Assembly (NCBI RefSeq): GCF_000504305.1
Contig: NZ_KI632512.1
Coordinates: 838,388-902,387, forward strand
Direction: 5' to 3'
DNA length: 64,000 bases
Origin: Nitratidesulfovibrio termitidis HI1
GTDB lineage: Bacteria; Desulfobacterota; Desulfovibrionia; Desulfovibrionales; Desulfovibrionaceae
Positions 9,929 through 63,500 of the stretch are shown here, one piece after another (positions within the stretch are counted from its first letter, which is position 1; every line of letters starts with the position of its first letter). The notes below the pieces were generated by a model. That model was given only the letters and a program-made list of their open reading frames with translations. It was not told where the DNA came from and searched no databases. A program made the translations under genes and the position numbers.

Positions 9929-9962
9929 CGAGCAACAACCAGTCACAACAGGAAAGAACATC

Positions 9963-10565: not shown

Positions 10566-10628
10566 AACGTTGAGTTACGTTCGCCCCCCCCACTAGGGAA
10601 TGACGTTGCAACCTGATGGGGGGGGGTT

Positions 10629-23627: not shown

Positions 23628-24136
23628 CGCACGAAACGACTACGGCCCCGGAAACATCCCCCCTGGCCCGGAGCGTTGCGTCCGTGGCTGCAACATTGTC
23701 CCACCCGAACTTTCCCAAAGGCGATCTTGCCGCGTTGCGACGCGGCGGTCCGTCCCTCGTCGCCACGCCCGGATTCTGGCGCGTGCTCCTGGACCGTGTG
23801 GATGAAGGACTGCGCGCCACTGACCAGGCAGAACGCGCATGGGCCGTCATATTCCAATCCATGTCCATCATGGCCCCGAACATCCACACCCCCAACCGCA
23901 CCCTTGGCGCGGTGCTGGCGGACATGAGCAAAAGCCTGGAACACAGGTTTCTGCGGTTACTGCGCTGTCGGGGAGAGCAGTTGGAGGACCAGATACGACT
24001 GATGGCCCGCCTGCTTGCCTCAAACGGCACTTCCGTGGACTGGGTTTCTCTGGCCGGGCTGTTGCTGCCCGGAAATGATGACGCCAAAGACCGCACCATG
24101 CACCGACTTGCCCGCGACTATTACGGAAAGAAATAG
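23624..24136 (+). CDS. casB: Cascade small subunit Cse2/CasB
   Basis: A 170-residue helical protein, MTHETTTAPETSPLARSVASVAATLSHP..., containing GDLAALRRGGP, the Cse2 hallmark for contacting the crRNA/target R-loop, and a C-terminal LARDYYGKK. Two copies sit in the belly of Cascade and stabilise the R-loop. It overlaps the cse1 stop by four bases. Confidence 0.92.
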   Translation: MTHETTTAPETSPLARSVASVAATLSHPNFPKGDLAALRRGGPSLVATPGFWRVLLDRVDEGLRATDQAERAWAVIFQSMSIMAPNIHTPNRTLGAVLADMSKSLEHRFLRLLRCRGEQLEDQIRLMARLLASNGTSVDWVSLAGLLLPGNDDAKDRTMHRLARDYYGKK

Positions 24137-24184
24137 AACGGTTCGTACCCCCCCATGACAACGCGAATGCAAAGGAGGACAATC

Positions 24185-26894: not shown

Positions 26895-26896
26895 TA

Positions 26897-39886: not shown

Positions 39887-40658
39887 AACCCAGCCTGCGG
39901 ACGATGCGGGATGAAACAGCGGCGGGCAGTACCGCCAGCCACCATGTTCCCCAGTTCAGCGGAAAGGGGAAGCTGATGCGCGCCCGGTCCCGTTCCAGGC
40001 CTTGCCGGATATGCCGGGCCGCTTTTTCGGGCGCCCAGAGAAACGGCTTGGGCCCGGGCATGCCGTCACACATGGCGGATTTGACATAGCCGGGCATGAT
40101 GACGCTGACGCGTATCCCCCGTGGGGCCAGCCACCCGCGCAGCGACTCGCCATATGCCTTCAGTGCGGCCTTGCTCGCACTGTACGCGGGGGTGAGCGGC
40201 AGCCCGAAGTAGCCAGCCAGGGAACTGAAAACGGCGATCTGCCCGCTGCCGCGCTCTAGCATGCCCGGCACCAGGGCGGTGATGACGGAAATGGCGCCCT
40301 TGATGTTCACGTCAAGCACCGCTTCGGCCTCGTCGCGGGGCTCGGGTTCGCCGTGCACACCGATGCTGGTGTTCACGCCAGCCGCAAGAATCGCCAGATC
40401 CGGTCCCCCCGGCGCACAGTTTTCATGCAGCCAGCGGCACAGTGTCCCTGTCTGGCGGACATCGCAGGCATGGGTCATGACGATGGCGCCGGCACGTCGG
40501 CACACCCCGGCAAGGCGTTCCAGCTTCGCGATGTTCCTGCCGTGCAGGTACAGGACGACATCCGGGCCGGCATAGAGTTCCGCCAATGCCGTACCAATGG
40601 CCCCGGTTGCGCCTGTGATCAGGATACTCTTCGCAATTGTTTCATTCCGCGCTGTCAC
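39876..40658 (-). CDS. Short-chain dehydrogenase/reductase (RkpH/WcbP type)
   Basis: A 260-residue classical SDR: nucleotide-binding GATGAIG near residues 16-22, the NAG-like motif ILAAGVN near 90, and the catalytic Tyr-Lys in YSASKAALKAYGESL near 160. It would reduce a carbonyl with NAD(P)H, perhaps the 3-oxo group made by the oxoamine synthase, as suggested for capsule-lipid SDRs. The GTG start at 40658 follows AGGAGG and overlaps the preceding glycosyltransferase stop by 17 bases. Confidence 0.88.
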   Translation of the reverse strand: MTARNETIAKSILITGATGAIGTALAELYAGPDVVLYLHGRNIAKLERLAGVCRRAGAIVMTHACDVRQTGTLCRWLHENCAPGGPDLAILAAGVNTSIGVHGEPEPRDEAEAVLDVNIKGAISVITALVPGMLERGSGQIAVFSSLAGYFGLPLTPAYSASKAALKAYGESLRGWLAPRGIRVSVIMPGYVKSAMCDGMPGPKPFLWAPEKAARHIRQGLERDRARISFPFPLNWGTWWLAVLPAAVSSRIVRRLGYGR

Positions 40659-42114
40659 GCCGCCTCCTGTCGCGCATGTCCCAGTACAACACCATCCCGA
40701 AGGCCATGCATGCCGTCAGACAAATGGGCAGCAGCACGATATTCCCCGTGCTGATGACAGCCGCGGTTGTCAATATGGAATACGCAAAAGAAAAAAACTC
40801 GCCATACCGCAGATAGACATCGATCTTCGGCTTGGGAGAACAGGCCTCGTCCGAGGATTTCGGAGTGCGGTTGAATTCCTCGTAAACCCCCAGCAGGGCA
40901 CGGATGCCGCCGACGAAATAGTACAGGGACATGGGCAAGAAAAGCCCGATGTACATGTACACACACCCAAGCGTCTTCAACACCCCCTTGCCGACGGCGA
41001 AATCCCTGCCCATGGGGGAGCCGACGATGTTGGCCACGCCCCAGACGGCGACAAGGACAAAGAACGCCAACGCGGCAACCATGAACCCTGCGCCCTCGAA
41101 CTGGAAAAAAAGGGCAAGCGGCAGGCTCAGCAGGAACAAGCAATAGATGGAGGCCAGCAACAGCGACGAAAACATCATGGAAACAGCATGCATGCGCTTG
41201 AGCATGGGCATCTTCTTCCTGAACATGCCGCCGCAGTGACGGAAGGCGCTGTGGATGAGCCCCCGCCCCCAACGTTCGCGCTGCACCCTGAAGGCGCTGA
41301 CGGTTTCCGGCAATATGGACATGGAGACGACATCCCGCAGGTACGCATAGTTCCAGTCGTCAAGCTGCGCCTTGTACCCGATGTCCACGTCTTCCGTGGC
41401 CGTGGCGGCCTTCCAGCCCCCCAGGGCCTCCATGCAGGCCCTGCGCCAGACACAGGAACTGCCGCTGAGGGATGCCATGTTGCCCGCCTCGCTCAAGCCC
41501 ACGGTGACGAACTGCTGATGCCCCATTTCCAGCGCCTGGAACTGCGTCAGGAAGGAAGCATTCCGGTTCTCGTAGTCAATGCCGGTTTGCAGGAAGCCAA
41601 GGCCAGCATCCCTGAAACAGGGAATGGTCTTGAGCAGGAAGTCGGGCGGCGGGACAAAGTCCGCATCGAAAACCGCCAGAAATTCCGCCTCAATCCGCGC
41701 AGCGCCGTAGCTCAGGTTCCCTGCCTTGGCGCAACGGCGCGATTGCCGCTTCAGGTAGCGGATGTTCACGCCCGAGGCCGCGCGCGCCTCTGTCAACGCC
41801 CTGGCCATGTCGCTGGTGGCGTCCGTCGAATCGTCCAGAATCGCTATTTCCAGCTGTTCCCTGGGATATTGCAAGCTGCAGACGGCGTCGACAAGCCGCC
41901 CGATGACCCCGGATTCGTTGCAAACCGGCAGCAGAACGGCCACCTTGGGATAAAAAGTCTCATCCTTTTCAGGCAGCAGCGCAATCTCCGAAAGTTTGCG
42001 CCGTTCAACCCGGCTGGAAATCCCGACCATCCGCAGTTCAAGCAGCACGTAAACCGCAAAGCAACAAATCACGAAGTAAAACATGAACTCCAGTAACAAG
42101 GCTAAAAACGGCAT
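40642..42114 (-). CDS. Processive-type family 2 glycosyltransferase
   Basis: A 490-residue membrane glycosyltransferase. An N-terminal span is followed by the GT-A domain with ILDDSTDAT, FDADF (DxD), TEDVDIGY and QRERWGRG, the D,D,D,QxxRW set of cellulose-synthase-like enzymes (closest in pattern to CslA/mannan-synthase types), then four to five C-terminal spans. It probably polymerises or extends the capsule glycan at the inner membrane. ATG at 42114 with GAGGGG upstream; a TTG one codon earlier is rejected. Confidence 0.88.
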   Translation of the reverse strand: MPFLALLLEFMFYFVICCFAVYVLLELRMVGISSRVERRKLSEIALLPEKDETFYPKVAVLLPVCNESGVIGRLVDAVCSLQYPREQLEIAILDDSTDATSDMARALTEARAASGVNIRYLKRQSRRCAKAGNLSYGAARIEAEFLAVFDADFVPPPDFLLKTIPCFRDAGLGFLQTGIDYENRNASFLTQFQALEMGHQQFVTVGLSEAGNMASLSGSSCVWRRACMEALGGWKAATATEDVDIGYKAQLDDWNYAYLRDVVSMSILPETVSAFRVQRERWGRGLIHSAFRHCGGMFRKKMPMLKRMHAVSMMFSSLLLASIYCLFLLSLPLALFFQFEGAGFMVAALAFFVLVAVWGVANIVGSPMGRDFAVGKGVLKTLGCVYMYIGLFLPMSLYYFVGGIRALLGVYEEFNRTPKSSDEACSPKPKIDVYLRYGEFFSFAYSILTTAAVISTGNIVLLPICLTACMAFGMVLYWDMRDRRRRDSAE

Positions 42115-42123
42115 CAATACCCC

Positions 42124-43218
42124 TCAGCAATCGACGATTTCACAAATATCCCGCAGGCGGTGCCCCCAGGTATGGGCGGAACGCACATAGCTGGCCCCTT
42201 CTGCGGCACGCTGCATATCCTGTTTGTCCGGACCGTGCCGCATACGCGCGAACGTCTCCCTTGCTTCCTCCTGACTGGATACGATAATGCAGTATGGAGC
42301 AAAAAATCTGCTTACACACAGACTTGGATTCGTCATGACAATGCCCCCACACGCAAGTATCTCAAGCAGCCTTCGTGAGCACATCGTCCCGGAATGCACG
42401 ACGGAATTCACATTGATAGACAAGACATGCGCCTTGTACAACTTTCCCGTCTCCCAATACGGCACGCGCGGATGCACGCAGAGCGCGTCCATTTTCGGAA
42501 AGCGGAATTCGAAATATCGCGAAAAACGATCATGGTTACGATCGAAAACATCAATTCTTGCCCGGGCCTCGTGCGCCGCCTGAAAGAGCATATCCAGGTA
42601 GGAGCGGCGTTCATTCAATATCTTGCGATAGTAGCTTCCGGTGAAACAGGCGCTCGATGTCGAAAAGCCGAAACCATCAAAGCTGTGAAACATGGGCTGG
42701 TAGGCAATCATCAGGGGGGCGACCGTCGTGCTTTCGGGAACGACCGCGCGATAGCGCGGGACACACGTCACGTCCGTCGTGAAGACATGGTCGAAGTGCC
42801 TGGCGACATCGATGAAGTGCTCGAAAAAGGCGGCGTCGTCCTTGTTCCAGAACACCGTGGGAATGCCCCGTGAGCGGGCGCACTCCACCACGCGCCGGAT
42901 GGTTCCGGGCGTCGTGAAGCGCAACCAGCGCGGCTGCCTGGCCAGTTCGTAGCGCCAACTCCCGTTGGAGCCATGGAACGCCGACTCCACGAACAGGAGG
43001 TCCGGGCGCCACGACCGCAGCACGTCGCGATAATTATCGGGCGTGACGTTCCTGACCTGGCATTCGATGCTCAGGCAGGTTTCGGTCAGATGGTCCGCGA
43101 TGAGCGCCACCTTCAACCTGCCGAACTCCCCTCGCCGGTCGGTCACGACCGGCGGCTGGGGATATTTGTAGAAGGTCGTGCTGAATTTCCGGACGAAACG
43201 ACCGATCACCAGATACAC
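42124..43218 (-). CDS. CgeB-like glycosyltransferase
   Basis: A 364-residue protein similar to CgeB-family GT-B enzymes (spore maturation protein CgeB group). It has RRVVECARSRGIPTVFWNKDD, a central ACFTGSYY that marks the linker, and the C-terminal donor region SRRLLEILACGGIVMTNPS. The acceptor and donor sugars are unknown. The GTG at 43218 lacks a good ribosome site but overlaps the upstream stop by 13 bases, consistent with coupling. Confidence 0.75.
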   Translation of the reverse strand: MYLVIGRFVRKFSTTFYKYPQPPVVTDRRGEFGRLKVALIADHLTETCLSIECQVRNVTPDNYRDVLRSWRPDLLFVESAFHGSNGSWRYELARQPRWLRFTTPGTIRRVVECARSRGIPTVFWNKDDAAFFEHFIDVARHFDHVFTTDVTCVPRYRAVVPESTTVAPLMIAYQPMFHSFDGFGFSTSSACFTGSYYRKILNERRSYLDMLFQAAHEARARIDVFDRNHDRFSRYFEFRFPKMDALCVHPRVPYWETGKLYKAHVLSINVNSVVHSGTMCSRRLLEILACGGIVMTNPSLCVSRFFAPYCIIVSSQEEARETFARMRHGPDKQDMQRAAEGASYVRSAHTWGHRLRDICEIVDC

Positions 43219-44531
43219 TCGCTTTGATTCCGCGGCCGCACCACATTTTCCACAAACGGCCGCCAGTTTCTATGCAACAACGCGTAGTCACGCGCCTTGC
43301 CTCCAAGCTCGACCAGCCTGGCGGGTTGACGCAAGGCCGCTTCAATGACCCCGGCAAGGCTGGCGGCATCGCCAGCCGTGAAAAACCAGCCTGCGGGGTC
43401 GCTGCCGAGTTCGTCGCGAAAAACGGGCAAATCCGGCACGATCACCGGTTTGGCCAGGGCCAGGGCCTCCACCAGTTTGATGGGCGGCACGATTTCGCAA
43501 ACCTTGAACGGCTTGCGGGGAATACAGACAAGGGCGCAGCCACGCAGGATTTCAAGCGCCTTCGCGGGCTCGACCCTGCCCGAAAACTCCACGCTGCCCC
43601 CCTGCCCCAACCGGCGCACCTGCTCTTCCAACTCCTTTCTGGCTTCGCCCTCGCCGACGATTTTCAGGCGGATCCGCACGCCCCGCCGCGCCAGCAGCGC
43701 CACCGCCTCGATCAGCGTATCGAGGCCTTCGTAAGGCATGATCGACCCCGCATAGCCGATCGTGTCGGCCTGCCCCCCGGAAAAAGCGTGGCCGGGCCGC
43801 ACGGCCGCGGGGTCGATGCAGTTGGGCAGCAGCGCCATGCGCTCCGGCCGCACGGCCCAATGCGACCGCGCATACCTGCCGAGTTCGCGGGAAATCACGA
43901 ACAGCCTGTCCGCATGCCGGGCCACCAGCCCTTCCAGTTCCAGCCCCAGTTTGTAGCGCGCGGTATTTGCAAACCACGGCATGCGCGAGGCGCGCGTCAG
44001 TTCCCACAGGCCGCGCATTTCATAGTGGAACGGGATGCCCAGGCTGCGGGCGGCCAACAGGGCCGGCAAGGCATTGGCATGATTCGAGGCCGCATGAATG
44101 ATGCCCACCCGCCTGGCCCTGGCCACCCGGGCGATCACCCTGGACGCCTGAACGGCGAACTGCAGCAGGTGGCGATTGTTCGCCGGCTGCCGGGCATGCG
44201 CATAGGCGATGCCGGCGACTATCGTCTCCTGCCCTTGCGGCTGGTCGACGCGGTCTTTCCTGTCCCAGGGGTAGCCGGGCCGCGTCAGCACATGGACGGC
44301 GGCCCCCGCATCGCGCAATGCGCAAAGCAATGCCTGGGTTCGCGTGGCATACCCCGAAATGTGATACGGCAACGAACTGGCCGGCACATACAGCAAGCTG
44401 TCCGCAACCGGCTCGTAGACCGGCCTTGCGGCCCGTGGCAGATGCCCGCACAGCCAGCCCATGCCCCATGTGGTCACGCGCCGGTCCAGCGCGAAAAACC
44501 ATTCGCCCTTCTTGAACAGCCCCAAGGTCAT
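43206..44531 (-). CDS. Family 4 glycosyltransferase (copy related to 48030-50624)
   Basis: A 441-residue GT-B enzyme. The acceptor domain begins LLYVPASSLPYHISGYATRT (about residue 45), and the donor half has IGYAGSIMPYEGLDTLIEA, LKIVGEGEARKEL and PPIKLVEALALAKPVIVPDLP with the nucleotide-sugar binding Glu. It shares its N-terminal signature and VLTRPG(Y/F)P motif with the large glycosyltransferase at 48030, so the two are paralogues. ATG at 44531 with GGAAGG upstream. Confidence 0.88.
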   Translation of the reverse strand: MTLGLFKKGEWFFALDRRVTTWGMGWLCGHLPRAARPVYEPVADSLLYVPASSLPYHISGYATRTQALLCALRDAGAAVHVLTRPGYPWDRKDRVDQPQGQETIVAGIAYAHARQPANNRHLLQFAVQASRVIARVARARRVGIIHAASNHANALPALLAARSLGIPFHYEMRGLWELTRASRMPWFANTARYKLGLELEGLVARHADRLFVISRELGRYARSHWAVRPERMALLPNCIDPAAVRPGHAFSGGQADTIGYAGSIMPYEGLDTLIEAVALLARRGVRIRLKIVGEGEARKELEEQVRRLGQGGSVEFSGRVEPAKALEILRGCALVCIPRKPFKVCEIVPPIKLVEALALAKPVIVPDLPVFRDELGSDPAGWFFTAGDAASLAGVIEAALRQPARLVELGGKARDYALLHRNWRPFVENVVRPRNQSECIW

Positions 44532-44560
44532 CTTCCTTCCGCACGCTGGCGTGCGCCCGC

Positions 44561-45511
44561 TCACTGCGGCAATTCCGCCCTGGCAAGATCCACGGTGCGC
44601 GTGGTCGTGATCTTGCCGTGCGCGTGCAGGTCGAGAAAATCCGCCGTCGTGATGATATCGTAGTCCTTCGCCAAGCGCCGGACCAGCTTCCGGTAGTCTT
44701 CCAGCCGCTTGTCGTCCCGATAGACACCATGGCCGTTCTCGTCCCAGTACAACAGCGACCAGGAATGGAGCAGCAGGACAAGAAACGAGCTGTCCCTGCC
44801 CAGGGTGTGCGGCCACAGGATACGCCAGGGCGGATTACGGAACCTGTGGGATACGGGAAATTGCAAGCGCCCCCACCAGTTGCGGCAGACGACGGGGTTG
44901 AACAGACGCTCCGTTGCCGGAACCTCGATAACCCCGTTGGACCAGCGGTAGGGATGCGGCGTCGGTTCGCCATAGGTACTCAAACCATTGGCAAATGCGT
45001 TCATCGAGCCGTTGAACGACAACGCGATGCCCGCGCCCTTCAACGCGCGAATCGTGCTGGCATTCCAGCGGAAGGAACCCGCGCGAAACGCCCTGAGCGG
45101 TTTGCCCGTGACATCCGAAATAAACCTGCCGAAGTGGCTGACAACAAACAGGGCCTTTTCCGGCCCGTACTGGTTCATGAAACGCGGTCGATACCTGAAG
45201 CCGTGCGGCTTCCAGAAATCTTCGGGAAGATACTCCGGGTGGGCATGCAACTGTACGTCCTGCCCGGCGACATCAAGCCAGCGCACGACATCGCGGATTT
45301 CGTCCTGATAGGCATGCGCACCGCAGACATCGACGAAAAAGACATGCCTGGCGTTCACTTCGTCGCCGATGGCGCACATTTCACGAATGCCGGCCGTGCC
45401 TCTGGCGTGCTGCCCCCAGACGAGATGCCTGACGTGCTCACCGGAAGCCCGCTTGGGCAGGGCCTCGGTGTCGACGGTGAGCAGGGCAAAGCGACAACCG
45501 CAGACACTCAT
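44561..45511 (-). CDS. Polysaccharide deacetylase-like protein
   Basis: A 316-residue NodB-fold protein: LLTVDTEALPK holds the first catalytic/metal Asp, VQLHAHPEY the metal histidines, and FRAGSFRW the Arg-containing motif 3. These fit carbohydrate esterase 4-type deacetylases that remove N-acetyl groups from glycans. No signal peptide, so it would act in the cytoplasm on lipid-linked or growing chains. A 210-base gap without a gene separates it from the previous one. Confidence 0.8.
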   Translation of the reverse strand: MSVCGCRFALLTVDTEALPKRASGEHVRHLVWGQHARGTAGIREMCAIGDEVNARHVFFVDVCGAHAYQDEIRDVVRWLDVAGQDVQLHAHPEYLPEDFWKPHGFRYRPRFMNQYGPEKALFVVSHFGRFISDVTGKPLRAFRAGSFRWNASTIRALKGAGIALSFNGSMNAFANGLSTYGEPTPHPYRWSNGVIEVPATERLFNPVVCRNWWGRLQFPVSHRFRNPPWRILWPHTLGRDSSFLVLLLHSWSLLYWDENGHGVYRDDKRLEDYRKLVRRLAKDYDIITTADFLDLHAHGKITTTRTVDLARAELPQ

Positions 45512-45722: not shown

Positions 45723-46748
45723 CTACCGAATATTTGACACTCCTGCGCTGCCGTACAACACTTGGTCATAGAGTCGCGCCACGAGCGACACATCGAAACT
45801 CGACTTCATATAATGAACGCAAACCGCAGAATCCGCCGCCCACAGTCTTGGATTCCTTGAGTATTCAAGAACCTTGGTCGCCATGGCGTTAGTATCTGCA
45901 TAAATCCAGTCGCTACGATAAACCTCGTCAGCCCCTTCCCAGTTGCGCATAATCGGCAATGCGCCTGAAGCCCCCCCCTCGGCTACAGACTGATGAGTGC
46001 CTTCAAAGTCGCTAACCGACAGGATGAAACCTATCTTTCGATACCACTCCCCCATATTGGCGTCCCAGCCATCAAAAACAACCCCTTCCCTCAGAACGGG
46101 GTTGGACGTAATGCGATCCAACTGCTCGGTAAAATACTCCAACTCAGCCGGTCTATTTCTAAGCCATGTGTATTCTGTTGGGGACTTCCCCTTAATGAAC
46201 AATTTAAAACGCTGGTCTCGAGAACGGCATGCTTCCAGCACATCCAGTGCCAAGTCCAATCGTTTACGTTTGGGAGCGATACCAACGATTCCTATATTAT
46301 ATATGCTATGGGCTGTTTTTTGGCGATTATAATACGCACAATCAATTGCATTTGGAATAACAAAAAACCTATCACGCAAACTCTCCCAGCCAAATTTATC
46401 AATTGCATCTCGGCATGTATGCTTCGAAACAAACACCACACAGTCTATATTATCCATTTTAGCCTGCTTTGGATATTCTGTCTCCAACTCCTGCAAATGA
46501 AAGCGGACAATCAAACGCTGTCCCTGGCGCTTGTACTGCGAATACCACACTGCATTTCCAAGAAACCATTCACAAAAAATAATATCCGCCTTCCCTAGCA
46601 GGTCTTCGCTCTCCTTAATGTCATGTTTTTTATGCCCATCCCAATAATGTTGAATGACCTCGTTTGTTAAAGCAAAATGCGCAGATAGCCCTTCCAAAAA
46701 TTTAAGATCATGCCCAACAATGCCAAGAAGTGGAAATTTATCTGCCAT
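45723..46748 (-). CDS. Family 1/4 glycosyltransferase
   Basis: A 341-residue GT-B protein. It has IIFCEWFLGNAVWYSQ, a clear VVFVSKHTCRDAID and VIPNAIDCAYYNR (the hinge region of GT4 enzymes), IGIVGIAPKRKRLDLAL, and the donor-site VSDFEGTHQSVAEGGASGALP. A G8 run lies in EGGA (45971-45978). The ATG at 46748 with GGAG nine bases upstream is preferred; an in-frame GTG at 46838 would add 30 residues. GC content is lower than in the flanking genes, suggesting separate acquisition. Confidence 0.8.
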   Translation of the reverse strand: MADKFPLLGIVGHDLKFLEGLSAHFALTNEVIQHYWDGHKKHDIKESEDLLGKADIIFCEWFLGNAVWYSQYKRQGQRLIVRFHLQELETEYPKQAKMDNIDCVVFVSKHTCRDAIDKFGWESLRDRFFVIPNAIDCAYYNRQKTAHSIYNIGIVGIAPKRKRLDLALDVLEACRSRDQRFKLFIKGKSPTEYTWLRNRPAELEYFTEQLDRITSNPVLREGVVFDGWDANMGEWYRKIGFILSVSDFEGTHQSVAEGGASGALPIMRNWEGADEVYRSDWIYADTNAMATKVLEYSRNPRLWAADSAVCVHYMKSSFDVSLVARLYDQVLYGSAGVSNIR

Positions 46749-46852
46749 TGCAATCGGCTCCAAGCTTGCATATTCCACTCTCTTCAGCCCCGCACCAAGC
46801 CTGGGCACGAGAGATGCTCCACGTCCAACGCTGGCCACGTGCTACAAATTAT

Positions 46853-48029: not shown

Positions 48030-50624
48030 TTATGCTCCGTAAGGGGATAGCTCGCGAAGACAAGAGACAACAACGCGTGTACTCGCCTCCCATGTCCTTT
48101 TATGCTCGACAAATTTCCGCCCATTCGAACCAAGTGCTTGACGAAGCGCAGGATCGGCGACAAGACGTGCCAGACTATCGGCCAGATCCTGCACACTCCC
48201 TTTTTTAAACACCAGACCAGTATGCTCATGCGTGACCATCTCCTGAAGCGCGCGAACACTTGAGACAACCACAGCCTTCTCCATAGCAAAAGCTTCTAGA
48301 GGCTTCATCGGCGATACCATTTCACAAACAGGCAGCGGCTTCCGTGGAAAGGGAGCAATATCAATCAAAGAATAGTAACGTTCCACTTCCTCATGCGGAA
48401 CTCGCCCTGCCAGAATCAGCCAGTCTGAAAACGCATACTGCCTGGCAATATCCGACACGGCATGGGAAATCCCCCCCCCCTGCCCCTCTCCAGACGTGTT
48501 TTCACTCCCTACGAGCAATAACCGGAAAATACATCCTTGCTCTTTCAGCAAACCGCAAGCGGCAGCAAGATCATCCAAACCTTCATAGTCAACGAATGTC
48601 CCAACATACCCGATTACAGGAACACCAGATGGAATACCCAACCGCGCTGCCAAGCCCTTATCTTTCTCTTGAGCCACGAAGCGCTCCGCATCACATGCAT
48701 TGGGCATAAGATCAATCTTCTCCGCCGTTACCCCTCGGGAAATCAACTCCGCTCGCATAGCTTCGGTCAGCGTAAATACCCGTTCCGCGCTATTTGCGAC
48801 CCGAGCCTCCATCAATGACTGCACCTTATACGTAGCACTCCGCTCATATCCCTTCTCACGAGACAATCTCGTGACCTCCCAAAATCCACGAACATCGTAG
48901 AAAAACGGAATACCTACACGTCGAGCCGCAATCAAAGTCGGCAAGGCAATAATATAATTCGATGCAGACATTACAGCTGTCGGCTCATGAATACGCAGAC
49001 GCGCCTCAATTGCATCAGCAGACTTCTCTACGTATTCATAGAAAGGAATTCCATTCCTCTTTGGGTCACTAATTCTCTCATAACACACTCCATCAATAGT
49101 CACTTTGCTAGCCACGTCAGTTGGTCCGAGTTCCGGTTTTATATCCAGAGGAAATCCAGGCCGAGTCAAAACTACCACTTCCACTCCTGATCGCTGTAGA
49201 GCAACCGCGATTCCATGCGACCTAGTTGCATACCCGCCAGACGAAAATGGCAACGAATTATGCAGCACATAACATATTTTATCTTTCTGCGCCGAAAATG
49301 CAGGTCTTCTTGGCTCAGGAATGCTATCAAGCAAGGCCAATTGATACGATACGGACCGCTTCAATTGGTCAATCCTCTTCATCTCTACTTCAGAAGGCCT
49401 AGCGCCTAACATTTTTTCGATATCATGAATCGCGGCACATGCGCTTTCAACATTTCCAGAATGTTGAGCAGACCAAAAAAAATTTCGCAATGCCGCCTTG
49501 GTTGTGTGAATATCCTTGGCAGCCTCTGCCAAAACAAACGCCGCATCCAACATTTCTGCCTTGGCATAATACTTTCCTATACAGATCAATGCAGCAGCAC
49601 AGCGCTCTAAATTATCAGAAAATTGCAACCTAATTTTCACTACAAACTCTGCAGTACCAATCTTCTTTTGAACCAACTGAGAAACATGGACTAAGAACTC
49701 ATCCGACAGAATACTAGCATCGCAGCAATATCCAGCAACATCCATAAGAAGGGGATCAAAGCCTTGCTCTACACATTGCTGCCGAGATAGACAGCATATG
49801 TTCGCAACAGATATCCTTCTCTCTCTAGCCCTGCGACGTATATCAGCAAGCCGACTCATTTCCGATGGTGAAAACGTCAGCTCAGTAGGCAGCGAGCCCA
49901 AAAGTGCATCTGCCTGCAACACATCCCCATCATCAGCAAGGCGAAATGCCATCCACTTTCTCCGAAACGGCCTGGGGTCTACTTCATAAGCACGACGCGC
50001 CGACTGAGCAGCGCTAGCAGTATCGCAGCACGCCATTTGATACCGCGCCAGCTCAGTAAATGCATGAGCTTTCATTGTCCGTCCAAATCCCCCCCTAACA
50101 AGCAGGGCATCTACTCCATCAAACCCAGACTTAATGTAGGCATTTACTACTGCGCCACATAGATCCTTATTATGATCCTTTCGCTGACAAGGCCTAATGA
50201 CATCACGCCAAATTTTCCACAAAATATATGGCAACTTCATCACCGCTACAGGAGAAATACAACAGTCCAAGACAGCCTGCCCTAGACGACAGCTCAAAGA
50301 ATTGGACATCTCAAGCGGCAACATCTGAGCCTGAACCCGCTGAATTGAAGTTAACCGCTTCAACTCAGCCACGCTGCAGGCCAGCTCGGCGGCAAGCGCA
50401 TCCCGATCTAAAACGGTGGTCGCCAGTTCTTCCGTGGCCTTACACCCAGTCCCCTCCCCTGCATCCCTAACAACAGACACTTTGTCGTCGGCCATCTCCA
50501 CACCTCTTACGAACAACGATCGTACGTCAATCAACGGCGCCGACGCCAATCCTTCCGCCTGCGCCTCCCTTTGACTTATAAAACCATCAGCAGCACGCAT
50601 AGTATACCCACCGCAGCGCATCAT
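48030..50624 (-). CDS. Large glycosyltransferase with helical N-terminal extension; G10 tract
   Basis: About 864 residues. The first ~440 are helical and repeat-like (ALLVRGGFGRTMKAHAFTELARYQMACCDTASAAQSARRAYEVDP is TPR-like). The rest is a GT4 enzyme: ICYVLHNSLPFSSGGYATRS, FYDVRGFWEVTRLS, IGYVGTFVDYEGLDDLAAA and EMVSPMKPLEAFAMEKAVV. A run of ten G on the coding strand (48471-48480) encodes GGG within GEGQGGGIS near residue 717. A change of one or two bases would shift the frame and remove the end of the donor domain. The start is uncertain: 50624, 50621 and 50600 are all possible. Confidence 0.85.
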   Translation of the reverse strand: MMRCGGYTMRAADGFISQREAQAEGLASAPLIDVRSLFVRGVEMADDKVSVVRDAGEGTGCKATEELATTVLDRDALAAELACSVAELKRLTSIQRVQAQMLPLEMSNSLSCRLGQAVLDCCISPVAVMKLPYILWKIWRDVIRPCQRKDHNKDLCGAVVNAYIKSGFDGVDALLVRGGFGRTMKAHAFTELARYQMACCDTASAAQSARRAYEVDPRPFRRKWMAFRLADDGDVLQADALLGSLPTELTFSPSEMSRLADIRRRARERRISVANICCLSRQQCVEQGFDPLLMDVAGYCCDASILSDEFLVHVSQLVQKKIGTAEFVVKIRLQFSDNLERCAAALICIGKYYAKAEMLDAAFVLAEAAKDIHTTKAALRNFFWSAQHSGNVESACAAIHDIEKMLGARPSEVEMKRIDQLKRSVSYQLALLDSIPEPRRPAFSAQKDKICYVLHNSLPFSSGGYATRSHGIAVALQRSGVEVVVLTRPGFPLDIKPELGPTDVASKVTIDGVCYERISDPKRNGIPFYEYVEKSADAIEARLRIHEPTAVMSASNYIIALPTLIAARRVGIPFFYDVRGFWEVTRLSREKGYERSATYKVQSLMEARVANSAERVFTLTEAMRAELISRGVTAEKIDLMPNACDAERFVAQEKDKGLAARLGIPSGVPVIGYVGTFVDYEGLDDLAAACGLLKEQGCIFRLLLVGSENTSGEGQGGGISHAVSDIARQYAFSDWLILAGRVPHEEVERYYSLIDIAPFPRKPLPVCEMVSPMKPLEAFAMEKAVVVSSVRALQEMVTHEHTGLVFKKGSVQDLADSLARLVADPALRQALGSNGRKFVEHKRTWEASTRVVVSCLRELSPYGA

Positions 50625-50672
50625 CCCTTTTTTGCACAACCAGCCTCCGCATGAGCAAATATATTTCTAACA

Positions 50673-51758
50673 TCAATCGAGATGATCACACAGGATACTC
50701 TCAAGCAACCTCAACATCCCCACAAGAACGACTGTCAACACTAGCAGAATAGCCATATTATAAACCCTTCTCGGCTCCATTGGATACTCCGGACGCGTTG
50801 GATGCTGTAGCACGGAAACTTTTTCTAGCATCCGCGTCGCATCGATCCGCCCCCTTTCCAGTGCAACAAGAGCTGTCTTATACACGTCCTGAGTGAATTC
50901 TACTTCCATCTGGAGTCGCTCGAACTCCTCAACAGCATAGTTGAGTGTTTCCCCTGATGGAGCAGCAAGCTTTGCCTTTTCTTGAGCAATTTGCCGGTTC
51001 ACGGCTACAAGCGATTGCTTGAGCATGACAATAGACGGATGGTTACTGTCCAGTGACATGGGCAACGAGGCCAACTGGGTTTGTATTTGGGTACGTTGAC
51101 CTTCCAATCTAGCTACAATTTCACCAATACCAGCCGCTGTCGCTTTTGGCGAAACCAATCCCTTTTGGTTCTGAAATGCAAGAAGTGCCTGCCTTGCCGA
51201 TTGAAAGCGCTGCTGTGCCAAGTCCACTTGGGCCGTCAAGAAACCCGCTTGAGCCTCGGCAAGTTCGTGACCAAGCTGGTTCATATAGCGCTCGCCTTCA
51301 CGCACAAGCATTTCGGCGATGGCCTGGGCCATCTTGGCATCATAAGCTTGCGCCTGAATGCGCAGGACACCGGAGTAGTCGTCATACACAACATTTATCC
51401 GCGACAAATAATGGCGATGAAACCACTCCATGGAGGCATCGCGGAACCACATCCTTGAAATGACATCCTGCCTCTTGTCACTATAGTGCGTGCGCAGATC
51501 AAGCGCCGCATCAAGTTTTTTAAGGATATCGACAGACAACAGATATTCCCTCAGCAACAACTGATCCGGGCGATTAGCATTGGCAACGCCCGCAGCAAGC
51601 ATGGAAATGTCAAAAGTTGGAGCATTCACTGCATTGGTCTTACGAATGATCACATTGGCATCGGATACAAATCGATCAGATGCCCAAAAAGCCCAATATA
51701 CGCCTGCCACCAGCGCTACTATATATAGCCCAAATATTAAACAACGGAATGGCTTCAT
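50673..51758 (-). CDS. kpsE: Capsule export inner-membrane protein KpsE/CtrB/BexC type
   Basis: A 361-residue polysaccharide co-polymerase (PCP-3) protein with an N-terminal span (LIFGLYIVALVAGVYWAFWAS), a large periplasmic coiled-coil domain (AEAQAGFLTAQVDLAQQRFQSARQA...), the PTRPEYPMEPRR motif before the second membrane span, and a C-terminal span. It links the KpsMT ABC transporter to the outer-membrane channel KpsD. ATG at 51758. Confidence 0.92.
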   Translation of the reverse strand: MKPFRCLIFGLYIVALVAGVYWAFWASDRFVSDANVIIRKTNAVNAPTFDISMLAAGVANANRPDQLLLREYLLSVDILKKLDAALDLRTHYSDKRQDVISRMWFRDASMEWFHRHYLSRINVVYDDYSGVLRIQAQAYDAKMAQAIAEMLVREGERYMNQLGHELAEAQAGFLTAQVDLAQQRFQSARQALLAFQNQKGLVSPKATAAGIGEIVARLEGQRTQIQTQLASLPMSLDSNHPSIVMLKQSLVAVNRQIAQEKAKLAAPSGETLNYAVEEFERLQMEVEFTQDVYKTALVALERGRIDATRMLEKVSVLQHPTRPEYPMEPRRVYNMAILLVLTVVLVGMLRLLESILCDHLD

Positions 51759-51836: not shown

Positions 51837-52499
51837 TCACCGCTCAATGCTGTGCTTGTACGCACTCAACGCATCATCAATCCGATCGAACCAGTAGGCC
51901 TTTCCCTCGGTAAGCCAGATACCGCATTGGCAAAATTGCTTGAGTGTGGCTTCATTGTGCGCAACCATAATAAGACCTGCACGGCCAGCCATGTCCTTGA
52001 ATGCCATGGCTGCTTTCTTGCGGAATGATGCGTCGCCGGCCGAAGTAACCTCGTCCGAGATGTACACATCAAACTCGAAAGCCAAAGACAATGCGAACTG
52101 TAGACGAGACTTCATGCCCGACGAATACGTATTGACAGGCTCATCAAAGGCATTTCCAAGTTCGGAAAAATCCTGAACGAACGCGAGGCGGTCTGCCAGA
52201 TCATCCTGATGCCCATGCACTCTGCAGACAAACTTTGCATTTTGCCGTCCAGAGAGTGTCGCCTCAAGCCCTCCACGCCCCATGGGCCAGGAAACCCTGC
52301 ACTGCCGTACAATTCGGCCTTTCGTAGGAAAGTCGACGCCACCGATCAGACGTAACAGCGTTGATTTTCCTGCGCCGTTTATACCGATCAAGCCAACGTT
52401 GGTGGCGGGGGGAATCATCAAGTTAATGCCCTGAAGAATCCACTTCCCCATTCCATGGTTTGTCTTGTACCGCTTGTGCACATCCTCAATTGTTATCAT
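51837..52499 (-). CDS. kpsT: Capsule ABC exporter ATPase KpsT/BexA
   Basis: A 220-residue ATPase: MITIEDVHKRYKTNHGMGKWILQG, Walker A GINGAGKST near 48-56, a family-type NTYSSGMKSRLQFALSLAFEFDVYISDE covering signature and Walker B, and a closing VAHNEATLKQFC. The length (about 220) is that of KpsT/CtrD proteins. The start overlaps the kpsM stop (ATGA). Confidence 0.95.
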   Translation of the reverse strand: MITIEDVHKRYKTNHGMGKWILQGINLMIPPATNVGLIGINGAGKSTLLRLIGGVDFPTKGRIVRQCRVSWPMGRGGLEATLSGRQNAKFVCRVHGHQDDLADRLAFVQDFSELGNAFDEPVNTYSSGMKSRLQFALSLAFEFDVYISDEVTSAGDASFRKKAAMAFKDMAGRAGLIMVAHNEATLKQFCQCGIWLTEGKAYWFDRIDDALSAYKHSIER

Positions 52500-53272
52500 C
52501 GCATCACCAATCGCAACGCATAGCGCCGGTACAGCAACAAGCCGATACAAACGCTAACCAAGGAGAACCCATAAAGGTAGCTCAAGCTTGCACCTGGAAC
52601 CATATGATAGTGGGCAACAAAGCCCTGCCGCACCACCTCAAGCCCATGCGCGACGGGGTTGACCATCAGATAGTCCCGATACGGCATCGGTACTGAGGAT
52701 ATTGGCCAAATAACCCCCGAAAGCAGGTACAGAGGCATCATCAAAATCTTAAAGATGTGCTCAAGCTCTGGAACAAGCTCCATCAGCACAGAGGTGACAA
52801 GACCATACCCCATGCCGAGCAGCCACAAACCGCCGACAGCCATCAGGACCAGCAAGGGATCACCCGGCACCACGTCGTGCCCGAGCAATCCCCCTATGAT
52901 AATGATAAGCGCGGATATGATCGCCATAAGAAACGCCTCTAAACCTCCACGCACGATAGCCGTATCAAAGGGTTTGACCTGCCGGTAAACAAACAGTGGC
53001 TTGTTGCCATCGACAGCGTACATTACTTGAATTCCGGTACGCCGGAACAAAAAGAAGGCCAGCATACCGACCATGGTCCAAACAGCGATGTCGATACCTC
53101 CAATGGCCCTTGTGCGGATCACTCTCCACACCAATGAGATAAAACCAATATGCGTCACCGGCTCAACAAGCAGCCAAAGCCACGCCGCCCGCTCGCCGAA
53201 AAGGCGATCCAGCGCCTCGCGCAGGAAGATCGCGCGCCAGACGGAAACGGTGATGGCCAGTGGGCTGCGCAT
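52496..53272 (-). CDS. kpsM: Capsule ABC exporter permease KpsM/BexB
   Basis: A 258-residue ABC-2 permease with six hydrophobic segments, FFLFRRTGIQVMYAVDGNKPLFVYRQVKPFD and a C-terminal PLYLLSGVIWPISSVPMPYRDYLMVNPVAHGLEVVRQGF, typical of KpsM/BexB. With KpsT it exports finished capsule chains across the inner membrane. It is 11 bases from the kpsD stop. Confidence 0.95.
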   Translation of the reverse strand: MRSPLAITVSVWRAIFLREALDRLFGERAAWLWLLVEPVTHIGFISLVWRVIRTRAIGGIDIAVWTMVGMLAFFLFRRTGIQVMYAVDGNKPLFVYRQVKPFDTAIVRGGLEAFLMAIISALIIIIGGLLGHDVVPGDPLLVLMAVGGLWLLGMGYGLVTSVLMELVPELEHIFKILMMPLYLLSGVIWPISSVPMPYRDYLMVNPVAHGLEVVRQGFVAHYHMVPGASLSYLYGFSLVSVCIGLLLYRRYALRLVMR

Positions 53273-53283: not shown

Positions 53284-54471
53284 CTACTGCTGCAAGGTAC
53301 GTTGCAGCATGTTGTTGATGTTCAGCGCCGGCACGGCAACCGAGATGACAAGCCGCAGGAACTTCTCGAATTCCGCCGCCGGGGAGTTGGCGACATAGAT
53401 GACGTCCCGGTTCTGGACCGGGAAGTTCTGGGTCACGAAAAAGGACGCCGGGTCGCGCAGATCGATCTGGTAGACCACCGGGACGGCGCCGTTCTCCGGC
53501 CCCGCCGGGGTGGGTGCGGGCTCCAGCAGGTGCGCATCCTCGAAGCGAAAGACGAAAACCCCCCGCGCGTCCGCACGGTTGTCGTTCAGCCCGCCGGAAC
53601 GCGCCAGGGCCTGCGCCAGCGAAATGCCCTGGGCCTCGAAGGGAATTTCCTCGTTCTTGCCGGTGGCCCCCAGCACGGAGAAACTTTGCGGCTGGAACAG
53701 CGCCGTGATGACATCACCAGGCCTGAGCGGAATGTTCTGCCTGGGATCGCGGATGACGGCGTCAAGCGGCATGGTGGCGGTGGTGTTCTCGCGGGAAAGC
53801 TGCACCGCCATGCGGTTTATGGGGTGCGTTACCCCACCCGCCTCGGCCAGCGCGTCAAGCAGGCGTTCGCCCTTCGGGGTCAACGGCACCAGCGCGCTTT
53901 TGTTGACCTCTCCCACGACCGTCACGTTGGACGTGTTGTTCCGGACCACGCGCACCAGCACCTGCGGCTGGTTCGCCTTGCCTTGCAGGCTATTGTCGAT
54001 ATCCGCCTCGATTTCCTGGGTCGTGCGGCCCTCTACGGCAATCCTGCCGGCAAACGGCATGGTGATCATGCCGTCCGGGGCAACCATCTGGGCGGGCAGC
54101 GTAACCGCGCGCGAGGCAATCGCCCCGGCATACGAGTCCGTGACGCCGGAACTGAAAAGCATGGCGGGCGGCGCCTCCCATACGGAAATCTCTATGATGT
54201 CCCCCGGCCCGATAAGATAATTGTTGCCCGCCGCCACGGGAAAGATATCCGCAAACAGGCCGAGCTTCTTGCTGTCTGCCAGCCTTCGCGCCAGCGCATC
54301 GTTGACGTCCACCAGCCGGATGCCCTCTATGCGTCCGGAATCTTGTTTGCTCTCCACCCGCGCCCGGCTTGGACCGGAGGACGACACCGTCGCGCATCCG
54401 GACACTGCGACAAGCAGCATGGCGCCGCACAATATATTGCAGGCGTTACGGAACCCGCCATATGACTTCAT
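53284..54471 (-). CDS. kpsD: Outer-membrane polysaccharide export lipoprotein KpsD/Wza-type
   Basis: A 395-residue precursor. The signal ends with lipobox VAVSGC (Cys ~22). The polysaccharide-export motif YLIGPGDIIEISVW starts the PES domain, followed by SLBB-type repeats (VRVVRNNTSNVTVVGEVNKSA... and QSFSVLGATGKNEEI). It forms the outer-membrane channel with KpsE. ATG 54471 follows GGGAAG; an upstream in-frame start at 54513 is rejected because the signal peptide would be buried. Confidence 0.9.
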   Translation of the reverse strand: MKSYGGFRNACNILCGAMLLVAVSGCATVSSSGPSRARVESKQDSGRIEGIRLVDVNDALARRLADSKKLGLFADIFPVAAGNNYLIGPGDIIEISVWEAPPAMLFSSGVTDSYAGAIASRAVTLPAQMVAPDGMITMPFAGRIAVEGRTTQEIEADIDNSLQGKANQPQVLVRVVRNNTSNVTVVGEVNKSALVPLTPKGERLLDALAEAGGVTHPINRMAVQLSRENTTATMPLDAVIRDPRQNIPLRPGDVITALFQPQSFSVLGATGKNEEIPFEAQGISLAQALARSGGLNDNRADARGVFVFRFEDAHLLEPAPTPAGPENGAVPVVYQIDLRDPASFFVTQNFPVQNRDVIYVANSPAAEFEKFLRLVISVAVPALNINNMLQRTLQQ

Positions 54472-54485
54472 GAGTGGCTTCCCTG

Positions 54486-55793
54486 CTAAATCAGCTTTTT
54501 TACCGTCTCGCACGCAAGACGGATATCCTGTTCACTGTGCATGGCGGACAAGAAGAACCGCAAGCGCGCCGCCCTCTCCTCCACTGCGGGATAGATGACG
54601 GGCTGCACGTTGATGCCCTGCTCGAACAATGCACCGGAAAGCCTTACCGCCTTCAGCGAGCTGCCGGTTATCACCGGGACAATGGCAGTCCCCTGGGCCG
54701 TCCCGACATCCAGTCCCGCCTCCTTTGCCAGCGCCAGAAACAGGTGGCCGTTGTCCCGCAGGCGCGCGACGCGCTCCGGTTCTTTCCGCAAGAGTTGCAG
54801 GGCGGCAAGCGACGCCGCTGCAAGGGGGGGAGCAATGCCGACGCTGTAGACAAAACCGGCCGCCGCATACTTGAGATGCTCGACCAGCGCGCGCTCGCCG
54901 GCGATGTAGCCGCCGCATCCCGCCAGGGTCTTGGAAAGGGTCCCCATCCAGATGTCGACATCCTCGCCGGCAATGCCGTGGTGCTCGCCCGAACCTTTCC
55001 CGGTCTCGCCGACAACCCCCAGGGCGTGCGCCTCGTCGACCATCAGGAAGCAGTTGTGCCGACGTTTGACGTCAATGAATGCAGGCAAGTGCGGGATGTC
55101 GCCATCCATGCTGTAGTGCCCTTCGATGACGACAAGCACCCGCTCGAACTGGCCGCGGACTTCGGCAAGGACGGCATCGAGCGCGTCCGCGTCGTTGTGG
55201 GGAAAACCGCGGCGGGTCGCCCCGGAAAGCCTGATGCCCTCAAGCACGCTGTTGTGGATCAGGCGGTCGTGGACGACGAGGTCCCTGGGGCCGAAAAGGG
55301 TCGAGATGGTGAACACGTTCGTGGCATGCCCGCTGACGAAGACCACGCAGTCCTCCACCCCGTAGAACGCGGCCAGTGCATCCTCCAGGGCGCGCTGCAC
55401 GGGCCGTTCGCCCGCCACGAGGCGGCTTGCGGAGGCGGATGTTCCGTATCGGGCGATGGCGGCCTTGGCGGCCTCGTTCACTTCCGGGTGCCCGTTGAAC
55501 CCCAGGTAGTTATAGCTTGAAAAATTGAGGTACTCGCGCTCGCCGATGGTGGTGACCGCAGTGGCGAGCCCTTCGTGCGTCCTGAAAAACGGGCTGTCGC
55601 AGCCAAATGATTTCGCGGCCGCGATGAGGAATTGCACTTCCTTGTACTTGGGATGGCTGTCGAAACGGCTGAGATGGTCCGGTGCGGCGCCTGCCCCCCG
55701 GCTGAGCCATCCGGCAGGCGCAGCGGCCGCCGCAGCCCTGGCCTTTCGCTCAAGCATGCGCCCGATAAGCTGTGATCGCTGCAAAACGCCCAT
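54486..55793 (-). CDS. PLP-dependent alpha-oxoamine synthase (AONS/KBL family; RkpG/WcbT type)
   Basis: A 435-residue fold-type I PLP enzyme of the 8-amino-7-oxononanoate synthase family. It has YNYLGFNGHPEV, GTSASASRLVAGE, the Asp-containing FLMVDEAHALGVVG, and the Schiff-base Lys in GTLSKTLAGCGGY (about K288). These enzymes condense an acyl thioester with an amino acid and release CO2. Next to a PKS in a capsule locus this matches RkpG/WcbT, thought to offload the PKS acyl chain. It starts two bases after the PKS stop, with GGGGAG upstream. Confidence 0.9.
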   Translation of the reverse strand: MGVLQRSQLIGRMLERKARAAAAAAPAGWLSRGAGAAPDHLSRFDSHPKYKEVQFLIAAAKSFGCDSPFFRTHEGLATAVTTIGEREYLNFSSYNYLGFNGHPEVNEAAKAAIARYGTSASASRLVAGERPVQRALEDALAAFYGVEDCVVFVSGHATNVFTISTLFGPRDLVVHDRLIHNSVLEGIRLSGATRRGFPHNDADALDAVLAEVRGQFERVLVVIEGHYSMDGDIPHLPAFIDVKRRHNCFLMVDEAHALGVVGETGKGSGEHHGIAGEDVDIWMGTLSKTLAGCGGYIAGERALVEHLKYAAAGFVYSVGIAPPLAAASLAALQLLRKEPERVARLRDNGHLFLALAKEAGLDVGTAQGTAIVPVITGSSLKAVRLSGALFEQGINVQPVIYPAVEERAARLRFFLSAMHSEQDIRLACETVKKLI

Positions 55794-55795
55794 GG

Positions 55796-58700
55796 CTACT
55801 CCCCTGCCGCCGTCATGGGCGGTTTGCCGGTATCGCGGACCACTCGCTCCACATCTTCCATGCTCAGTTGCTCGCCGTGCTTCCGCACGATGTCGTCAAC
55901 CAGAATGGCCGCCTCGTCCCGCTCCGCCGCCTGCTCTCCCTTGAGCCGCTCTACAATGCGCTCGGCCACCTTGCTGGCTGACGGGGATTCATTGAGCAGC
56001 ATGACGGGAAACTGCACGCCGAACCGCTTTTCCAGCCCCACCGCCAGTTCCACGGCCATCAGGGAATCCATGCCCGCATCGTGCAGCGGGCGTTCCGGGT
56101 CGACACGGTCCACGCCCAGGGAGAAGATGTCCGCCACTTCCTGCAGGACCAACCCGCGCACCATGTCGAGGAGTTCCGACCTGCTTTTCGTGGCGGCAAG
56201 GGCCTGGAAGTCGCTCCGGGAGTCGTCCTGCGCGCCGTCTCTGCACGTTGCGTTGATATTCTCGAAACGAGAGGCCTGCGCCGAGGGCAGAAAACGCCGC
56301 AGCACGCCCCACTCCATGGTTGCGACCGCGGCATCGCTTCCGGCGGCAAGAGCCGCCTCCAGATGCAGCATGGCTTGCGCCACCGTAAGCGGCGCCCCCC
56401 CCAGGCGCTGGACCAGGCTGTCCCGAACAGCGACATTGCGCGTCAGATACCCCGCGTCGCCGATGGGCCCCCAGCCAATGCACACGGCCGGCAACCCCAT
56501 TTGCCGCCGCAACCTGGCAAGCGCCTCCAGCCCGGCATTGGCGGCAACATAATTGGCCTGGCCGGGATTGCCGATCAGCGTGGTTATGGAAGAGTAGAGA
56601 ACGAAATGTTCCAGCGGCAGCGCGCGCGTAAGCCTGTGCAGGTTCCACGCGCCCAGCAGTTTGGGCCGCAAGACCGTGGCGATGCTGTCCGCGTCCATGT
56701 TCATGACAAGCCGGTCATCGAGCACCATGGCCGCGTGCAGGACGCCACTGAGGGGGGGCAGTTTCCGGGCCGCCAGTTGCAATGCGTTTTCCAGCGCTGC
56801 GGCATCGCTTACGTCGCATGCCAGCGCCAGTACGTTGACGCCCCGTTCCGTCAGTTCCGCGATGGCGTCCCGTGCCCCCGGCGCATCCGGACCCCGGCGG
56901 CTTACCAGCACGAGGTTGCCGACTCCCCGCCCGGCCAGCCAACGGGCCGTTTCCAGCCCGAAGCCGCCCAGGCCGCCGGTGACAAGCCACGTGGCCTCCG
57001 GGGCAAAGCGCGGCAATTCCGCCGCAACGTCCGGAAGCTGCACGCGTTGCCGGTCATCCAGCGTGACCACGATCTTGCCCATGTGACGGGCCTGCTGCAT
57101 GCAACGAAAGGCCTCGACAACCCTCTCCGCCGGGAACGCCGTGTAGGGCAACGGCGTCAGCACGCCGCTGCTGAACAGCGCCATGACTTCCTCAAGCAGC
57201 CGGGCGGCAAGATGGGGGCGGCCAGTCAGGAGTTGGTCGGCATCGATACCGAAATAGCTGATATTGTCCTTGAACGGGCGAAGGCCGATACGGGTGTTCT
57301 CGAAAAAGTCGCGCTTGCCGAGTTCCAGAAAACGGCCAAACGGCTTGAGCACACGCAGGTTGCGCCGAATGGCCTCGCCCGACAGCGAATTCAGCACCAC
57401 ATCCACGCCCTGCCCTTCGGTAACGGCAAGGATGTCGTCGGCAAACGTGCCGCCGCGGGAATCGAAAACGTGCGAAGCGCCAAGCAACCGCACCAGATCG
57501 CGCTTCACGTCGCTTCCGGCCGTGGCGAAAACCTCCGCCCCCAAATGCCGGGCCAACTGTATGGCCGCCATCCCCACGCCCCCGGCGGCGCCATGGACGA
57601 GCACCCGCTCGCCCGGCTGCACGTCGGCCAGGTGCCGGAGCGCATAATACGATGTCAGGAATACCGTGGGCACCGTGGCGGCCGACTCGAACGACCAGCC
57701 GCCGGGAAGACGCAGCAAGGCATGCTCGTTCGTGACCACGTGGCTGGAAAAACAGGCGGGACCAAAACCGAAAACCGCATCCCCGGGCCGCACCCCGGCG
57801 ACCCCTGCGCCCACGCGGGTAACGATGCCGGAAAACTCCAGGCCAAGGCTGGCCCCGGCAAACCCTTTCTCGACGGCCTCATCGGGCAGCAATCCCATGA
57901 GGTACATGACATCGCGGAAATTGAGCCCCACCGCCCTGGTGCGCACTTCAACCCCGTCCGCCGGCAGCGCGGGCTCCGGAGCGGGCACCCAGAACAGGTT
58001 GCGCAATCGCCCGGGCATGCGGAAATCCAGCCGGAACCGTTCTGCCTTTCCCTGCGCGGCGGACCTTTCATCCCGCGACAGGACAAGGGCACGCCTGCCC
58101 GTGGCCGAAAGCACGATTTCGCTTGCGCCGTCGGGCAGAAGCAGTTCGTCGGCAAGCCGCGCGGTTGTCGTCGCCTCGTCCGCACCGCCGCCCAGGTCGA
58201 CAAGCGTGCATCGAAGGGCCGACGCTTCGTTCATGACCACGCGCCCGAATCCCCACAGGGCCGCCTGCGCCGGATTGTGCACCCAGTCCTCGGGCAAATC
58301 GGACGCCAGCGCGCCGCCCTTGGTCACAACCCACACCCTGGGGGGATGAGCACGCCCCCCCATGAATTCCCGCACGTGCCCCTGAACATGGCAAAGCACA
58401 TCCACGGCGTCTTCCACGGGCCGCTCCCAGCCCAGGAGGAACACCACGTGTGCCACGTCGGGCTCCACGCCATCCAGCAGCGGAGACGGAACTACGACCG
58501 CGTGCTGCCCCCGCGCTTCCAGCACGGCGCACAGTGACCGTGCAACCGCCTGCGAGGCGTCATCCGCAACCAGCAGCCAGCGCTCGGCACAGGTCGCCGC
58601 CACGTGGCCCGCCGTGTCCCGGGCGCAACGGGCCAGCAGCAAATACGCGCCTTCAGCCAGATCGCCAGCGGCAGGCTCGGTAAAACGCGCGGTATCGGCA

Positions 58701-63304: not shown

Positions 63305-63500
63305 TTGAGTTCCTGATTGGTCATAATTTTTTTCGGCATCATCCAACCGTCACAAAAGAAATGGATTTGTCACGTCAAACCAAAAAACTTTAAGCGACCT
63401 CTAAGCATATCACTATTATTGCGCTATAAAACAATCACTCCATCACGAATACATACAAATTGAACCAACGCTATCATTACGCAACAAACACAAACAACAT

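Follow-up and report, generated by a model that had tools for sequence, protein, structure and literature searches.

Does a run of ten guanines inside a capsule glycosyltransferase gene of Nitratidesulfovibrio termitidis HI1 switch this gene on and off? The gene lies in the stretch of 64,000 nucleotides analysed here, called the window (positions 838388-902387 of a single-contig 4.26-Mb genome); coordinates refer to the window unless stated otherwise. If the tract switches, the cells of one clone would differ in their capsule glycan. This would bear on phage sensitivity, on attachment and on the reading of capsule loci from one reference genome.

The tract and its enzyme

48030-50639, minus strand: GT-B glycosyltransferase (Glycos_transf_1 family, GT4-like), 869 residues from TTG, 864 from ATG; assigned by Pfam, Foldseek and the homologue L034
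48471-48480, minus strand: G10 tract on the coding strand (C10 on the plus strand), codons 720-723 of the glycosyltransferase, Gly721-723, in a loop

The first G of the tract is the third position of codon 720. The frame runs CAG GGG GGG GGG ATT, the three GGG codons being Gly721-723. A first-pass annotation had described ten in-frame coding-strand G at this place, in the donor domain of an 864-residue enzyme, and had called the present length the ON state. The ten G are borne out by sequence and open reading frame, which is continuous across them. The figure of 864 residues is the length from the ATG at codon 6, and the tract indeed lies within Glycos_transf_1 (residues 666-842), in the C-terminal half of a GT-B enzyme. 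It had also stated that slips shift the frame. In silico they do so: the loss of one base leads to a stop at codon 741, the gain of two at 742, the loss of two at 749 and the gain of one at 750. All four stops precede E782, which is invariant in the alignment A2 of 26 sequences.

A second Pfam domain, Glyco_trans_4_4, covers residues 468-647. The PF00534 match reaches 79.4 bits against a curated cut-off of 26.4; NCBIfam TIGR04063 is matched below its cut-off. The best Foldseek matches of the predicted model are sucrose-phosphate synthase (6kih), GlgM (6tvp), MshA and BshA, and by this model the C-terminal half adopts the GT-B fold. It is preceded by an N-terminal extension of roughly 430 residues, predicted to be mostly helical, of which residues 1-137 are modelled with low confidence. 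The G10-encoded residues are placed in a loop leading from the strand 706-710 to the helix 724-734. There, pLDDT falls below 50 (residues 718-720), as against more than 90 over most of the surrounding donor domain; the tract is thus predicted to encode a flexible loop of this domain.

The EX7E motif marks CAZy family GT4. A string search did not find it at the expected place in the 869-residue enzyme, and assignment to GT4 was rejected for this reason. E773 and E782 are spaced as EX8E, one residue longer than EX7E, which is why the enzyme is termed only "GT4-like". The coding strand of the same gene also contains a T8 run (49475-49482) and a G7 run (50089-50095).

A capsule-type locus

The neighbouring genes lie on the same strand. 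A polyketide synthase (PKS), an oxoamine synthase and an exporter are found upstream of the glycosyltransferase; more glycosyltransferases, a short-chain dehydrogenase/reductase (SDR) and a sulfatase-family protein follow downstream.

55796-63346, minus strand: single-module type I PKS, KS-AT-DH-MT-ER-KR-ACP (domain matches)
54486-55793, minus strand: PLP alpha-oxoamine synthase, similar to BioF and serine palmitoyltransferase (NCBIfam matches below cut-offs)
53284-54513, minus strand: polysaccharide export protein, Poly_export and SLBB (domain matches)
52496-53272, minus strand: exporter ABC-2 permease, KpsM-like (PF01061; KpsM model NF050053 below its cut-off)
51837-52550, minus strand: exporter ABC ATPase, KpsT-like (PF00005)
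50673-51758, minus strand: inner-membrane export protein of KpsE/BexC/CtrB type (TIGR01010, 266 bits, cut-off 437.5)
43206-44816, minus strand: a second enzyme of the same glycosyltransferase family (32% identity over 437-857)
38366-42117, minus strand: sulfatase-family protein, SDR and GT2 (domain matches)

The proteins that define the export machinery of Group 2/3 capsules, i.e., KpsM- and KpsT-like, KpsE-like and outer-membrane export proteins, are all present. Since the NCBIfam matches fall below the curated cut-offs, the exporter proteins are classed by sequence as the homologous type and not as the named equivalogs. Capsule_synth (the KpsC/KpsS Kdo-transferases) was not matched among the operon proteins scanned. 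By its gene content, the operon is predicted to be a capsule-type ABC-export locus, and the capsule context proposed in the first-pass annotation agrees with the export genes that adjoin the glycosyltransferase.

The glycosyltransferase gene shows two marks of a contingency locus: a coding homopolymer of at least about eight bases, and truncation of the product upon a unit change. A third mark, an effect on the cell surface, is suggested by the capsule-type export and glycosyltransferase genes that surround it.

PKS and oxoamine synthase stand side by side with the capsule-type exporter (53284-63346). The product of the locus could possibly carry a lipid or acyl moiety that derives from a polyketide and is perhaps sphingoid-like. 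A similar PKS is presumably found in the Wcb capsule locus of Burkholderia. The oxoamine synthase was used to fetch 80 loci, the best of 222 kept, mostly from Beta- and Gammaproteobacteria. Matches to the PKS occur in 78 of these 80, to the KpsE-like protein in 30, to the ABC ATPase in 26 and to the permease in 24. Like N. termitidis, many of them thus have a capsule-type ABC exporter; unlike in N. termitidis, the 869-residue glycosyltransferase is rare there (8/80). Of the six glycosyltransferase matches shown, L072 is the best (45% identity over 370-860), L071 and L097 reach 33-35% over the glycosyltransferase half, and three cover the N-terminal part only.

Chance, homologues and the genus

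How unusual is such a tract? From dinucleotide composition, 0.0034 runs of at least ten G are expected in the glycosyltransferase gene. Synonymous codon shuffling yields a P of about 0.026-0.0275 for G10, a higher value because GGG is the commonest glycine codon of the gene (21 of 56). For the 14-gene operon, the shuffle predicts 0.12 runs of at least ten (P 0.12). As to runs of at least eight, the operon contains three, where its codon usage predicts 1.68. Two of the shorter runs had been listed in the first-pass annotation:

45971-45978, minus strand: G8 run, codon 287 of a 371-residue glycosyltransferase (45723-46838)
56395-56402, minus strand: G8 run, codon 2315 of the 2516-residue PKS, in the linker between KR (2118-2296) and ACP (2400-2464)

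Both exist, but they add little: the number of runs of at least eight in the operon fits the codon-usage expectation, and we rejected them as supporting switches.

The genome at large behaves differently. We sampled 400 kb in 20 stretches, called genes with a simple in-house model and left out the first 60 codons of each (234 genes, 257 kb). Five runs of at least eight were observed there versus 23.9 expected by synonymous shuffle, none of at least nine versus 7.9, and none of at least ten versus 3.0. Observed numbers below expectation in the sample, as opposed to three versus 1.68 here, mean that long G/C runs are avoided in the sampled genes and not in this operon. G10 is therefore rare against the sampled genes of its genome and only mildly unusual given the codon usage of its gene and operon. 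The two yardsticks for such tracts, genome-wide run avoidance and the codon usage of the gene, give different answers here. The contrast in avoidance would fit selection for the tract, but also an accessory gene in which avoidance has been relaxed.

The latter leads to the strongest rival explanation. In an acquired accessory gene of low GC content that uses GGG for glycine, a Gly-rich loop may have come to read G10 by accident, without selection having purged it since; the run may slip, yet it would not be kept for slipping. We consider this quite possible, if somewhat short of an even chance. The gene is probably of this kind, its GC3 being 0.45 versus 0.85 in the sampled genes, and its codon usage and the shuffle values just mentioned speak for a chance origin. 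Low GC alone, however, makes such runs rarer: the sampled genes with GC3 below 0.72 (14 genes, 9.4 kb) contain no run of at least eight, and 0.01 of at least ten are expected in them.

The homologues also favour an incidental run. At E<=1e-30 the glycosyltransferase is matched in 22 of 348 genomes of the class, its own included, but all seven congeneric genomes lack such a match; at E<=1e-80, a search of 395 further genomes of the phylum retrieved only the gene itself. An initial contig scan had given seven pattern matches and no relative. The best homologue, L034 (42% identity, full length), has a loop one residue shorter at the tract site, with G/C runs of at most 3. In 29 homologous segments inspected, the longest G/C run at this site is 5, and L072, from a Pseudomonadota MAG with a similar locus, lacks nine loop residues. 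Conservation of the tract across orthologues was rejected on these grounds and on those of the NeuB and DegT orthologues (see below). Since the homologues lack the run, it appears, as far as seen, to be particular to its own genome or species. The claim of a likely phase-variable switch in the first-pass annotation thus fares in two ways: frame, truncation and the genus pattern described below speak for it, the missing run in L034 and the 29 segments against it.

The genus was surveyed in seven genomes, one per species, with 143 runs of at least ten assessed (own genome 25, G005 25, G004 18, G006 29, G001 23, G003 9, G007 14). The 25 of the own genome are all of its distinct G/C runs of this length (49 overlapping matches merged; 14 and 11 in separate lists). 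The survey leaves out part of the runs of exactly ten (10 of 12 in G003, 6 of 8 in G007, 2 of 2 in G002, 1 of 23 in G001). Of the runs of at least 11, it leaves out all three of G002 and, in both G001 and G004, several that stand at the end of a contig; 19 further runs in the fetched stretches were dropped for lying at a contig or stretch end. In the draft genome G001, the end of a contig or stretch coincides with a run of at least ten in 15 cases, as though poly-G brought the assembly to a halt.

The gene caller placed most of the runs outside genes: 73 of 97 were called intergenic in a first set and 46 of 65 in a second, where another 11 border the end of a contig or stretch. Those called coding mostly lie near the ends of open reading frames, usually no more than 260 bases into frames taken from their longest start, and are probably upstream sequence. 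A two-sided coding test of 155 runs of at least nine found coding sequence on both sides of seven (eight rows, one run being listed on both strands). Its thresholds were looser, and the high score of the glycosyltransferase is circular, as this operon formed part of the training set of the second model. Stricter coding-window tests were set aside as too strict: among 154 runs, one of them found one continuous case, the glycosyltransferase itself, and one frame-broken case (L347); another found neither kind among 143 runs.

Five of the seven two-sided runs fall within a conserved domain or separate parts of one. Besides that of the glycosyltransferase, they are the following:

L162:2579-3670 (G005): NeuB-family synthase, in-frame G10 at codon 167 of 363, STGGGT motif
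L166:2360-3562 (G004): DegT/DnrJ/EryC1 aminotransferase, in-frame G10 at codon 224 of 400, GDGGGV
Own genome 1172481-1173550 (L015:2482-3551): AbiEi-family antitoxin split at a G12 (1172810-1172821)
L347:1538-3659 (G001): PrpR-like sigma-54 regulator interrupted by a G12, PrpR_N and Sigma54_activat

The two others fall outside matched domains, towards the C-terminus, in a UvrD-like protein and, with nine bases, in a PP-loop protein. Further candidates were put aside as low-complexity, outside domains or near the start of a reading frame: L017 (ABC exporter linker), L031 (MreC tail), L207 (TPR protein), L369 and L180.

The NeuB gene adjoins a Capsule_synth gene. Of its 11 other orthologues, eight keep three glycines at the tract site, and all have runs of at most 5. 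The DegT gene adjoins a methyltransferase and an NAD-epimerase; in its eight other orthologues no run exceeds 7, and one of the three glycine places is mostly taken by alanine. A basis in codon choice is thus seen for NeuB and in part for DegT. The AbiEi gene was compared with a homologue of 340 residues: the upstream frame corresponds to residues 35-246, the downstream frame to 245-324. The downstream piece is matched by two of three homologues, the third (Pantoea) matching the upstream part only, and an open AbiEii-like partner of 281 residues follows. This gene could be a switch out of frame, a pseudogene or a sequencing error. In the PrpR-like gene, PrpR_N is matched at 6-133 upstream of G12 (E 3e-17) and weakly at 125-166 downstream (E only 0.27), where Sigma54_activat follows. 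Either split could also reflect a pseudogene in decay or an error at the homopolymer, the runs at contig ends in G001 pointing to the second.

These tracts bear on the incidental run in both directions. The NeuB and DegT orthologues without a long run and the GC3 of the four genes (0.57-0.73, all below the sampled mean) fit it. Against it stands the pattern itself: five domain tracts spread over G000, G001, G004 and G005, none of them in a housekeeping domain, with two of the genes split. All five are G on the coding strand, and three are in frame in glycan genes of three species (the glycosyltransferase, NeuB and DegT); for these reasons, the five look like a slipping set, if a small one. In 51 genes of the GT1 and GT2 families, no run of at least ten was found, and two runs of nine both lie within the first 41 codons. 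A shuffle P of 0.007 obtained for glycan families is biased, the NeuB and DegT families having been chosen after runs had been seen in them.

The tract as a possible switch

We consider the chances about even that G10 is a mutational hot spot which acts as a translational on/off switch of this one capsule glycosyltransferase. Slipped-strand mispairing would yield G9 or G11, and translation would then end at codon 741 or 750, respectively. The donor domain would lose everything beyond the tract, E782 included, and the truncated enzyme would be dead. The sugar added by it would be missing from the glycan until the tract slips back. The frame shift may also lower the expression of later genes of the operon. 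All this presupposes that slippage is frequent enough for switching and that selection maintains the tract. Switching of this G10, read in one genome only, is plausible and is strengthened by the genus pattern.

A slip need not occur in the DNA. Polymerases can slip on long homopolymers, and transcriptional or ribosomal slippage at G10 could yield full-length and truncated enzyme in constant proportion from unchanged DNA. The genes split at G12 would be left unexplained in this way, whereas slippage of DNA would explain them, and we regard the idea as improbable. Least probable of all is an artefact of assembly or sequencing, for although homopolymers are a known class of error, the frame is intact across G10 and homology on both sides runs in one frame (L072 over 370-860), so that any other length would have to differ from 10 by a multiple of three.

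A switch of this kind would have well-known counterparts. In Campylobacter, coding tracts are reported to be mostly G (PMC539331), and the five domain tracts of the genus share this strand preference. In the capsule poly-G genes of Campylobacter jejuni, e.g., cj1421/gene 06810 for the MeOPN transferase, reads of switching genes show 8-11 G, and after exposure to phage the tract of a capsule transferase was seen in the off state (PMC5808241). As there, the N. termitidis run sits inside a transferase gene of a capsule locus, and a change in length leads to an early stop. In contrast to the mixed lengths and the phage-resistance phenotype measured in C. jejuni (PMC5808241), the N. termitidis tract is known from its sequence alone, and its host has a genome of 66% GC (by sample), in which G runs are common between genes. 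In the Group 3 capsule of E. coli K96, an A7 tract in kpsC slips reversibly (PMC13410964). This is again a homopolymer in a capsule locus that includes the genes of an ABC exporter, but the tract consists of A, the gene is the initiation gene, and the variants were found as spontaneous mutants (PMC13410964). Orsi et al. discuss homopolymers as a general mechanism, the over-representation reported there being that of A and T tracts (PMC2831843). For Desulfovibrio-like sulfate reducers, the presumed lineage of our strain, a literature search retrieved no report of such tracts.

More tentatively, and rather doubtfully, the genus might carry scattered, species-specific poly-G switches at glycine-rich motifs, in genes for capsule or sugar acids, in a type IV antitoxin and in a sigma-54 regulator, arising partly by codon choice. 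Where poly-G tracts coincide with frame breaks, annotation may take such genes for dead although they are only switched off.

The window contains other features. A G15 (13687-13701) and a further G10 (14493-14502), which the first-pass annotation did not mention, are intergenic; the latter is preceded by an inverted repeat, as judged by eye, and the runs of L020 and L030 adjoin or lie within one. At 7126-11788, an integrase gene of phage type and an integrase-core gene of IS type mark a mobile-element region with several intergenic G/C runs. CRISPR-Cas genes, which we take to be of type I-E, are found at 19384-27775 (Cas3, CT1975-like, Cas5, CRISPR_assoc and Cas1).
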